A stretch of 64,000 bases of DNA from assembly GCA_038883335.1 (NCBI GenBank), contig JAVZMI010000001.1:115696-179695 (forward strand), written 5' to 3'. Positions 7,609 through 12,382 of this stretch are shown one piece after another. Below the pieces are notes generated by a model that ran no database searches, had not been told where the DNA came from, and saw only the letters and a list, made by a program, of their open reading frames with translations. Origin of the DNA: Candidatus Bathyarchaeia archaeon (GTDB lineage Archaea > Thermoproteota > Bathyarchaeia > Hecatellales > Hecatellaceae). Each line of letters starts with the position of its first letter. Position 1 is the stretch's first letter. The position numbers and the translations under genes are program-made.

Positions 7609-8354
7609 CTCCTCACCTTTCCTTCAAGAGTCTGAAAAACAAATCTATCAACGGCTATAGCCAAAATGCCAATTACGAATATGCCTGCGAAGGCGTCTAC
7701 GATTAAACCGTCACTTACTGCCAGATTTATGAACGAACCTATCCCAGCGACGCCTGCGAAGATCTCGATGGCCAATATGATCTCCCAGACATGGTCAAAG
7801 GCTAGCCGGACGCCTGTAATGGTCTGAGGTAGGGCCGCAGGTATGATAATCTTTCTTAGTACGTCCAACCTCCCTGTCCTGAAGATAGTGGCCACGTGGA
7901 AATAGTCGTGTGGGATGTCTTTGACTCCCTCCCTCACTGTGAAGTATAGTAGGAAGAATGAGCTGACCATCGCCATGAAGGTGGCGGCCAATCCGCCGGG
8001 GCCGAACCATAGGACGAAGAGGGGCAGTATGGCAAGATTTGGGAGAGCTCCAGCCATGAGGATTATTGGTGTTAAGGCTGAGTCTAGTTTATCTTTAAGT
8101 CCGGTGCAGATGGCAATGGGAACTGCGATGAATAGCCCTATGAGTATGCCGCTTGTTAAGTTTATGAAGCTGTAGAGTACGCGACATAGGAATGGAAGAT
8201 TGAAGAGATCCAGTATTAGGATTGCGAATATGACGGATGGTGGGGGTACCTCCTGTGCTGGAATGATGCCGATTCTGACTGTAAGTTCCCATCCGAGAAG
8301 GATCAAGCTTAGAGGTATGGTGAATAGATATTTTTCAAATGTGAGCCTTCTCAC
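7596..8354 (-). CDS. ABC transporter permease, NitT/TauT (SsuC/TauC) type
   Basis: This 252-residue protein has about six membrane helices and the BPD_transp_1 coupling-loop region. Visible features are TVREGVKDIPHDYFHVA, RKIIIPAALPQTITGVRLAF and a C-terminal VDRFVFQTLEGKVRRW typical of SsuC/TauC permeases. It starts at GTG 8354 and overlaps the ATPase gene, making a two-gene operon. The matching substrate-binding lipoprotein is missing from the neighbourhood and must be encoded elsewhere if this is a functioning importer. Confidence 0.9.
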   Translation of the reverse strand: MRRLTFEKYLFTIPLSLILLGWELTVRIGIIPAQEVPPPSVIFAILILDLFNLPFLCRVLYSFINLTSGILIGLFIAVPIAICTGLKDKLDSALTPIILMAGALPNLAILPLFVLWFGPGGLAATFMAMVSSFFLLYFTVREGVKDIPHDYFHVATIFRTGRLDVLRKIIIPAALPQTITGVRLAFDHVWEIILAIEIFAGVAGIGSFINLAVSDGLIVDAFAGIFVIGILAIAVDRFVFQTLEGKVRRWHE

Positions 8355-8703
8355 AGTAGCTTTAGCCCTCCCTATTCCGAATTCAGACCGCTCCCTCTAG
8401 GATGGTCGAAACCTTGACCAACAAGCTTTCTTAAGAATCTGAAGGTGAGACTGGAAAACATAAGATTTTGGCTTCTTTACGGATCTAAACTTTAGATCGC
8501 GGCTACATTCAGCGTTTAAGCTGAATTTGTGTATTATACAAAAAATAGTTAAAATGTTCTCTGAGGAAGTAAAATAAAATACATGCCTATTGACAACGTT
8601 AAAAGCTTACAAACCTTCAACCAACGTATATCTACTTGCACCTTCCCATGCAAGATGACTGATCCCAAGCTCTGGCCACGACGTAAATCGAGGGATAGTA
8701 ACT
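8355..8703. other. Intergenic region, divergent promoters
   Basis: No gene is supported in these about 350 bases. AT-rich stretches (around 8520-8590) could hold TATA elements for the divergent ABC operon and the glycosylase gene. GAGGG at 8690-8694 is a good ribosome-binding site for the CTG at 8704. Confidence 0.4.
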
Positions 8704-10706: not shown

Positions 10707-11054
10707 CTTTCAATTCCCTTTGTTGGGATTTTCGCTATGCATCCTTGCCAAAAAAATCACGCAAACATCTCATCACCGGTTTATCTTTCAATTCCCTTTG
10801 TTGGGATTTTCGCTATGCATCTACATGCGGCTTATTGTTCGTCAAAGCGAAAACCCAGCTTTCTTTCAATTCCCTTTGTTGGGATTTTCGCTATGCATCC
10901 TCACGGCTAACGGAGCCCTATAACTTGGACGTTCGCCAAACTTTCAATTCCCTTTGTTGGGATTTTCGCTATGCATCTAAACCCGAAGAGGCCCCGATTG
11001 AACTTATAAAAGCTAAACTTTCAATTCCCTTTGTTGGGATTTTCGCTATGCATC
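10707..11054 (-). CRISPR. CRISPR array, 5 repeats of 37 nt, 4 spacers
   Basis: Five identical 37-nt repeats lie at 10707-10743, 10785-10821, 10863-10899, 10941-10977 and 11018-11054. They are separated by unique spacers of 41, 41, 41 and 40 nt. On the reverse strand the repeat ends in ATTGAAAG, the usual 5' handle of archaeal type I/III crRNAs, so transcription should run right to left from the AT-rich side. The reverse-strand repeat can form a TCCC/GGGA stem with a 6-nt AACAAA loop. cas6 lies next to it; no adaptation or effector cas genes are in the window. Confidence 0.97.
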
Positions 11055-11337: not shown

Positions 11338-12135
11338 CTAACTCCTAGACGCAAACTTGGTTACCCCAAACCCCCCCGTTCTATTTCCTCCCACATTTGC
11401 GTATTCTGCAAATCTCGCCAGCATGCATGTGATCTTGTTCCACCAGCTTTCCTTATCCTTCAACTCATATGTTACCCAACCAACAAACCCTACCGCCTTC
11501 TTCTGCTTCATAACTGCCAACCTAGTCCACAGTTCATATTCACTTACGCCCACATTCTTATTCAGCCACTCCTTGTAGGCTAGGTATTCCCCCCTACCAA
11601 ACCGCTTACAGTCACTAAACAAATTCCAAACCCGCATAAGCCCACAGAAAACCTTCACAGCGTCAGGAAACATCCAATGGAAACTGCTACCCAAACTGGC
11701 TAGATAGGTAGGTGTCCTAAAAACCAGACGGAGAGCGTCAGCTGCCGAAGCCTCCTTCTCTAACCCCTCATAACTCTTACAATTCACACTTATGGAGGCA
11801 ATCCTGAAAGACGTATCAAAAACTAACACGCTACCCTGCTTCTCAAAAAACCGAAGGAGGTAATTCGCATACTCGTCTTTTAAAAATCTGAAATGAACCC
11901 GGCAAGGGGCTAGATTATCCATGAGATAACCCTTATCACACCGCGCCTTACTCTTAAACTGTAAAGGTGCAACAGAGTAGGGCTTGGCAACATTCAACTC
12001 ATGCAGCAGCCCAGAAGCACTTGGATCCACCTGCCTCACAATATGCAACAATAAACCCCGCGCCACATGCCCCGTGAAAAACGGCAAAATAACCTCCTTC
12101 TCACCATAAATCTCCAAGCCAACCTCCACAGGCAT
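11338..12135 (-). CDS. cas6: CRISPR-associated endoribonuclease Cas6
   Basis: This 265-residue protein ends with the Cas6 glycine-rich loop ANVGGNRTGGFGVTKF, the hallmark of repeat-processing RAMP endonucleases. The N-terminal ferredoxin-like half includes a His in PFFTGHVARGLLLHIV. Cas6 cuts precursor CRISPR RNA inside each repeat to leave the 8-nt 5' handle. It lies beside the array in the same predicted transcription direction. No cas1, cas2, cas3 or cas10 is nearby, so it must serve effectors encoded elsewhere. Its 5' leader carries a repeat-like element over the ribosome-binding site. Confidence 0.9.
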   Translation of the reverse strand: MPVEVGLEIYGEKEVILPFFTGHVARGLLLHIVRQVDPSASGLLHELNVAKPYSVAPLQFKSKARCDKGYLMDNLAPCRVHFRFLKDEYANYLLRFFEKQGSVLVFDTSFRIASISVNCKSYEGLEKEASAADALRLVFRTPTYLASLGSSFHWMFPDAVKVFCGLMRVWNLFSDCKRFGRGEYLAYKEWLNKNVGVSEYELWTRLAVMKQKKAVGFVGWVTYELKDKESWWNKITCMLARFAEYANVGGNRTGGFGVTKFASRS

Positions 12136-12142
12136 GCCGAGT

Positions 12143-12175
12143 CAACTCCCCCTACTGGGATTCCCTCTAACACTC
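12143..12175 (-). repeat. Degenerate CRISPR-repeat-like element in the cas6 5' leader
   Basis: Ungapped alignment to the array repeat (from its CAATTCCC onward) gives 21 matches of 33, and 19 of 27 in the first part. More than half of the mismatches are transitions. On the transcript strand it keeps TCCC-(6 nt)-GGGA, the same stem and loop length as the crRNA repeat. The sequence GGGGGAG, the apparent cas6 ribosome-binding site (10 nt before ATG), lies within it. It could be a Cas6 binding site for autoregulation or an old solo repeat. Confidence 0.5.
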
Positions 12176-12382
12176 CCTAGTACTCTACACACAAATATCT
12201 ATTAGAACTACCGTAAATGTGACTCTGACTTTCCAAAACGCCACATCAAATATTTATTAGCTTCTGGTTTAAAGGTGCCTCAACCAGCACATTAAAAGTA
12301 CCTGAAGGCAACAGTGTCATCATAAACGTTAAACTGAAGCCACGATAACAAAATCTTTATCAAATCGAAGCAATGTCACCTA

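Follow-up and report, generated by a model that had tools for sequence, protein, structure and literature searches.

The 5' leader of the cas6 gene in the window (the whole 64,000-nt stretch of DNA analysed here) contains an element resembling the repeat of a nearby CRISPR array, and the presumed ribosome-binding site of cas6 overlaps it. Judged from sequence comparison, this element is probably, although far from certainly, an autogenous operator, by which Cas6 would control its own production through a repeat mimic. Two features of such an operator are present, namely a ligand-like element in the mRNA and its overlap with the ribosome-binding site at a fixed distance from the start codon.

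The cas6 gene and its surroundings

The window derives from a 1.22-Mb archaeal genome (G000) that is 98.9% complete. The cas6 product matches the Cas6 families PF10040 (52.4 bits, cut-off 25) and PF19308 (25.1 bits, cut-off 23.9), and its score against TIGR01877 (51.4 bits) lies under the cut-off of 58.65. The nearest relatives of this gene are found in Bathyarchaeia bins. Homologues in other Bathyarchaeia are 57-73% identical to the window Cas6 and share an invariant MP start, from which the cas6 start codons were assigned. His45, which we take to be the catalytic residue of the window Cas6, and Lys51 are invariant in the family (motif LHE..KPYS, 14 sequences aligned). In addition, the N-terminal LHE motif containing His45 is profile-aligned to the LHE motif of the solved Cas6 4c98.

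The features discussed here are listed in Table 1. Other arrays sharing the repeat core are present elsewhere in G000. From what is known of Cas6, recognition should involve the 3' part of the repeat, with cleavage immediately 5' of the 8-nt handle ATTGAAAG; the predicted cut site in the leader is derived from this usual handle length.

Table 1. Positions of cas6, the array and the leader features in the window.
Feature	Positions	Strand	Remarks
cas6 CDS, 265 aa	11338..12135	-	start ATG at 12135; PF10040 and PF19308 matches
CRISPR array, five 37-nt repeats GATGCATAGCGAAAATCCCAACAAAGGGAATTGAAAG	10707..11054	-	same strand as cas6, downstream
CRISPR-repeat-like element, cas6 5' leader	12139..12175	-	ungapped 37-nt match to array repeat, 22/37
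Conserved core AATCCC-AGTAGG-GGGAGTTGA	12142..12162	-	hairpin plus TTGA; kept in relatives' cas6 leaders
Presumed Shine-Dalgarno sequence GGGGGAG	12146..12152	-	from sequence; overlaps hairpin 3' arm
Predicted Cas6 cut site, if any cut	12146..12147, between A12147 and G12146	-	counterpart of the GGGA/ATTGAAAG junction of the repeat

In some relatives cas6 heads a series of cas genes. At L082 it is followed by cas3 and a cas7/csa2-family gene, all on the same strand, and at L083 by genes matching Cas5 and Cas3, so that control at cas6 could also affect the operon. G000 itself holds a second cas6 (L004:2801-3606, contig C2), which is split by a frame change over two reading frames, has cas3 directly downstream and may be a pseudogene or an assembly error. 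Its leader carries the element GAATCCCATTGTGGGAGTGATTTGG immediately 5' of the start codon.

The leader element resembles the 3' half of the array repeat

The window cas6 leader reads GTTAGAGGGAATCCCAGTAGGGGGAGTTGACTCGGC-ATG. The original prediction had described in it a sequence matching the array repeat at 21 of 33 positions, with the stem and 6-nt loop kept and the ribosome-binding site inside, and each of these points is confirmed. The 21 matches fall in the first 33 positions of the full-length alignment, the stem is formed by TCCC (12160-12157) and GGGA (12150-12147) around the loop (12156-12151), and GGGGGAG lies inside the element about 10 nt before the ATG.

The likeness covers only the repeat's 3' half, with the hairpin and TTGA, and the repeat 5' GATGCA was seen in none of the cas6 leaders. 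The handle is partly kept, as GTTGA or GTGA in place of ATTGAAAG. At the base following the stem (+1), the 25 intact leaders all have G, and the 13 repeats of the profile described below all have A. Comparison of leader loops with the repeat loops of the same genomes revealed no tracking. The repeat copies found around the window element do not include it, and it does not belong to a series of regular identical repeats with spacers, as array repeats do. In Rfam, the leader has no match and the array gives weak, sub-threshold CRISPR-DR17 matches.

The original prediction would have failed if such similarity were common in shuffled sequence or in this genome, and it withstood this check. When the 60-nt leader was shuffled 20,000 times with its dinucleotides kept, 22 matches were reached once, and 11 of about 800,000 non-array positions (400 kb of G000) score at least 22. 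The chance of such a repeat match is about 3e-4 to 1e-3 per leader, and the match by itself is only moderately unlikely by chance; the element is more than chance because it is conserved in the cas6 leaders of relatives. The pattern AATCCC-N4-7-GGGAGT occurs once in the window, with 0.04 occurrences expected. The exact core TCCC-N6-GGGA-N-TTGA is found in G000 in the arrays, in the window leader and at one further place (G000:C5:56646-56664, minus strand, TCCCATGCTGGGGACTTGA), the sole other exact non-array match in the genome.

A two-arm profile was used for scoring because the 5' arm falls out of register in a 37-column repeat alignment. It was trained on 13 array repeats alone, with no leaders, and its background consisted of 787,638 host-genome positions from which arrays and cas6 leaders had been removed. 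With this repeat-only profile, 8/36 leaders (7/33 in the unbiased set) score above the highest background position. The window leader reaches 13.2 bits, a score of which about 4e-4 are expected per leader. The top-scoring matches in leaders end 1-4 nt 5' of the start codon.

The element is conserved in Bathyarchaeal cas6 leaders

A search for cas6 in genus-, family- and order-level relatives gave no match beyond G000, and class and phylum were needed. The cas6 genes were gathered by protein search from 398 genomes of the phylum, a GTDB contig set and one viral contig; most genomes compared are metagenome bins. The counted set consists of leaders from class-level relatives, with about 47% Cas6 identity or more, and comprises 33 leaders after removal of duplicates and of L128, L137 and L139, which had been found through the element pattern itself. 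Conservation upstream of cas6 in relatives, the check originally proposed, is borne out in this non-redundant, protein-homology set, in which 22/33 leaders carry AATCCC (or GATCCC/AAGCTC)-N5-7-GGGAG. Four further leaders have an altered hairpin (L033, L089, L091, L108), and in L089 (CCTA/TAGG) and L108 (TCCT/AGGA) the stem, inspected by eye, is kept only in a shifted register. The element is absent from the remaining seven (L024, L026, L030, L031, L093, L097, L105), and at least some genomes of element-less leaders have the same repeat kind (G149, G351). To link array repeats with genomes, patterns restricted to TTGAAA endings were searched, and in several element-bearing genomes no array was found in this way.

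Among species that have the element, identity is 91% over the 14 arm bases, an upper bound given that the set was selected for carrying the element, and 31% over the 40 upstream bases. In the same comparison, third codon positions are 47% and first plus second codon positions 75% identical. This bears on the idea that the element is a relic or solitary CRISPR repeat, for which drift would be expected, yet it is better conserved than the first and second codon positions. Arrays do lie near some cas6 genes (the window; L100, L107, L109), and since cas promoters are repressed by CreR RNAs, which resemble crRNAs (PMC12737573), the element might also be pictured as the 5' repeat of a CreA/CreR-like crRNA gene. 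The handle, however, is followed by the start codon and coding sequence of cas6, with no free spacer, and the element always stands in the cas6 sense, so that a relic or a crRNA gene is a highly improbable explanation.

Mapped on the protein tree, presence of the element requires 4-5 changes, which fall together in the Bathyarchaeal Cas6 clade, a pattern compatible with an old origin and subsequent losses. Leaders outside Bathyarchaeia, in the limited set of genomes covered, are without the element. A plasmid search returned distant Cas6 only, mostly cyanobacterial, and a viral-contig scan with a single protein gave no match. A pattern scan of viral contigs gave 34 matches, by rough estimate about the chance level.

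The pattern ATCCC-N3-9-GGGAGTKGA, searched in 257 genomes of the class, gave about 75 matches, and a reversed-pattern control also gives a substantial rate. Flanks were read for 30 of these matches, and every convincing gene starting just downstream is cas6; two other frames near L127 and L134 (180 and 327 aa) look like pieces of longer genes. Among leaders with flanks read, the element is tied to cas6.

The element is anchored to the translation start

GGGA lies 9-12 nt before the start codon (sd 0.95, 25 leaders), and between a TATA-like motif and the element the distance is 38-54 nt (sd 4.6, n=18). The tight spacing to the start codon and the loose spacing to the TATA-like motif indicate that the anchor is translation, which fits a function in the mRNA. 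Moreover, the TATA box usually lies 25-27 nt from the transcription start, which places the element inside the transcript. The same measurements weigh on a function in DNA, in which the palindrome TCCCA-N4-TGGGA just past the promoter would bind a dimeric transcription repressor of cas6. Although a near-perfect inverted repeat is present in many leaders and lies downstream of the TATA-like motif, we regard such an operator as improbable, because the spacing is tighter to the start codon than to that motif, conservation on the 3' side (GTTGA) is asymmetric, the palindrome corresponds to the hairpin plus flank of the repeat, and no other gene start has the palindrome in the flanks read.

The sequence GGGAGTTGA is able to pair with the 16S tail. 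The usual sites in 345 leaders of G000 are GGAGG (55) and GGTGA (45), and GGAGTTGA occurs once in the 345. Where a cas6 leader has GGGAG close to the start, ATCCC lies 4-8 nt upstream of it in 24/25 cases; the corresponding counts for other GGGAG sites are 9/1,036 in G000 (cas6 leaders included) and 6/557 in the flanks of relatives. The need for a Shine-Dalgarno sequence thus leaves the 5' arm unexplained, as this arm is found in about 1% of cases elsewhere. Element-less leaders mostly have GGTGA-type sites (L024, L030, L031), and in L026 and L093 the proximity of the TATA-like motif makes a leaderless mRNA probable. The element therefore appears to be an addition that has come to serve as the ribosome-binding site.

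A covariation test gave no signal (the score was reached by 127/500 shuffles), and is uninformative because the stems hardly vary. The folding stability of the leaders is ordinary (z -0.01 to -1.65). A nearly invariant stem with ordinary stability suggests that sequence rather than stability is constrained, as expected of a protein-binding site. These observations also concern the possibility that a hairpin at the ribosome-binding site tunes translation alone or via another factor (temperature, a ribosomal protein), the repeat likeness being coincidental. Such a hairpin would account for the pairing of both GGGAGTTGA and GGGAGTGA with the archaeal anti-Shine-Dalgarno sequence, for the overlap of the hairpin with the Shine-Dalgarno sequence and for the change of GTTGA to GTGA in some leaders, which suits ribosome pairing and not the repeat. 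It nevertheless seems unlikely in view of the nearly invariant stem with no covariation, the ordinary stability, the atypical site GGAGTTGA, the tie to cas6 and the detection by a profile made from repeats only. In particular, the leaders display neither the unusually stable nor the covarying structure characteristic of a protein-free RNA thermometer or sequestering hairpin.

A possible mode of autogenous control

In the autogenous operator that we favour, the cas6 mRNA leader would mimic the half of the repeat recognised by Cas6, with AATCCC-loop-GGGA plus TTGA, and the 3' arm of the mimic together with the following G would serve as the Shine-Dalgarno sequence. Free Cas6 would bind the leader hairpin and block ribosome loading. 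Alternatively, Cas6 could cut between GGGA and GTTGA, thereby separating the start codon from its ribosome-binding site. Plentiful pre-crRNA repeats would compete for Cas6 and relieve the block. Cas6 output would thereby follow the repeat supply, as with ribosomal proteins and their own mRNAs.

The original prediction, that Cas6 could act on its own mRNA and so tie its level to crRNA supply, is partly supported. The binding or cleavage by Cas6, the sign of the regulation and the titration that would link it to supply are what we infer from the leader sequences. Cleavage is less certain than binding, since with G instead of A at +1 the element is perhaps bound but not cut. GGGAG requires this G, which may in addition keep the enzyme from cutting. 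The handle and the 5' part of the element diverge from the repeat; haloarchaeal Cas6 processes strongly degenerated repeats in creA (PMC8501985), so such divergence alone does not exclude recognition. Evidence against an operator consists of the seven element-less leaders, the partial handle, the lack of loop tracking and of covariation, and the ordinary folding. For a wider proposal, in which Cas6 would repress its own translation throughout Bathyarchaeia as a one-protein homeostat measuring free repeats, with the A-to-G change making the operator bindable and poorly cut, we consider the chances to be even.

Relation to known systems

How cells adjust their Cas6 supply as pre-crRNA amounts change is not well understood. 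Closest in mechanism are the autogenous operators of ribosomal proteins, in which an mRNA mimic of the natural ligand lies over the gene's own ribosome-binding site and the ligand titrates the protein. The cas6 element likewise is a ligand mimic over the ribosome-binding site of its own gene; it differs in that the protein is a CRISPR endoribonuclease, for which cutting besides blocking is possible, and in that binding is putative.

The crRNA-like guides CreR and CreA use their spacer part to steer Cascade or Cas12a to promoters by base pairing (reviewed in PMC12737573; primary data in PMC8501985). Both they and the cas6 element involve a degenerated repeat outside arrays, near cas genes and for control, and the crRNA pool would act as a competitor that makes expression depend on repeat supply. 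In contrast to these guides with a spacer, cas6 coding begins at the place of the spacer, and the likely level of control is translation of the same mRNA. Assignment of the element to CreA/CreR was considered and rejected, as the start codon follows 9-12 nt after GGGA in 25 leaders and a free spacer-like part is missing. The best reading of the sequences is that the element represents a repeat-mimic regulation distinct from CreA/CreR.

Synthetic Cas6/Csy4 repeat switches have been placed in 5' UTRs in PERSIST (PMC9095627) and 5' DREDGE (PMC12191184), where a CRISPR endoRNase acting on a repeat in the mRNA alters expression. These are engineered, whereas the cas6 element would be a natural counterpart that acts on the enzyme's own gene and is merged with the Shine-Dalgarno sequence. 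Racr RNA anti-CRISPRs are virus-encoded solitary repeat mimics that inhibit CRISPR-Cas (PMC10651486). The cas6 element shares with them the solitary repeat mimic, but belongs to the leader of the host's own cas6 rather than to a viral inhibitor.

Judging by its title, a 2023 survey by Shmakov and co-workers (doi 10.1093/nar/gkad495) treats repeat-derived regulatory elements in CRISPR-Cas loci. In our literature search, which did not extend to the content of this survey, we found no report of Cas6 regulating its own mRNA or of a natural Cas6 operator. If true, the proposed control would form a feedback loop that works directly at translation and needs no guide, in contrast to the transcriptional loops known so far, which are crRNA-guided, and a CRISPR repeat would have been re-used as a gene-control element in mRNA. 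The operator idea can be checked with one protein and one short RNA.

Incomplete and solitary copies

A solitary repeat-like sequence, GATTCAAAGGAAAATCCCAATAAAGGGGAGTTGAAAC, is present at L123:89-126 (G439:C41), with no array around it in the stretch examined. The viral contig L111 (IMGVR_UViG_3300031898_000278) encodes phage capsid, cement and portal proteins and ends in a cas6 5' part with the element (7960-8348); it may be a provirus beside cas6 or contain a virus-borne cas6. Truncated or interrupted cas6 copies in which the element is still present were observed in L139 at about 1500 (G008:C33) and L128 at about 1500 (G463:C12). In L109 (about 8001-8570), only the N-terminal part of cas6 (residues 1-68) occurs with the element, and CRISPR repeats follow close behind; the same genome holds another cas6, that of L089 with the altered hairpin.
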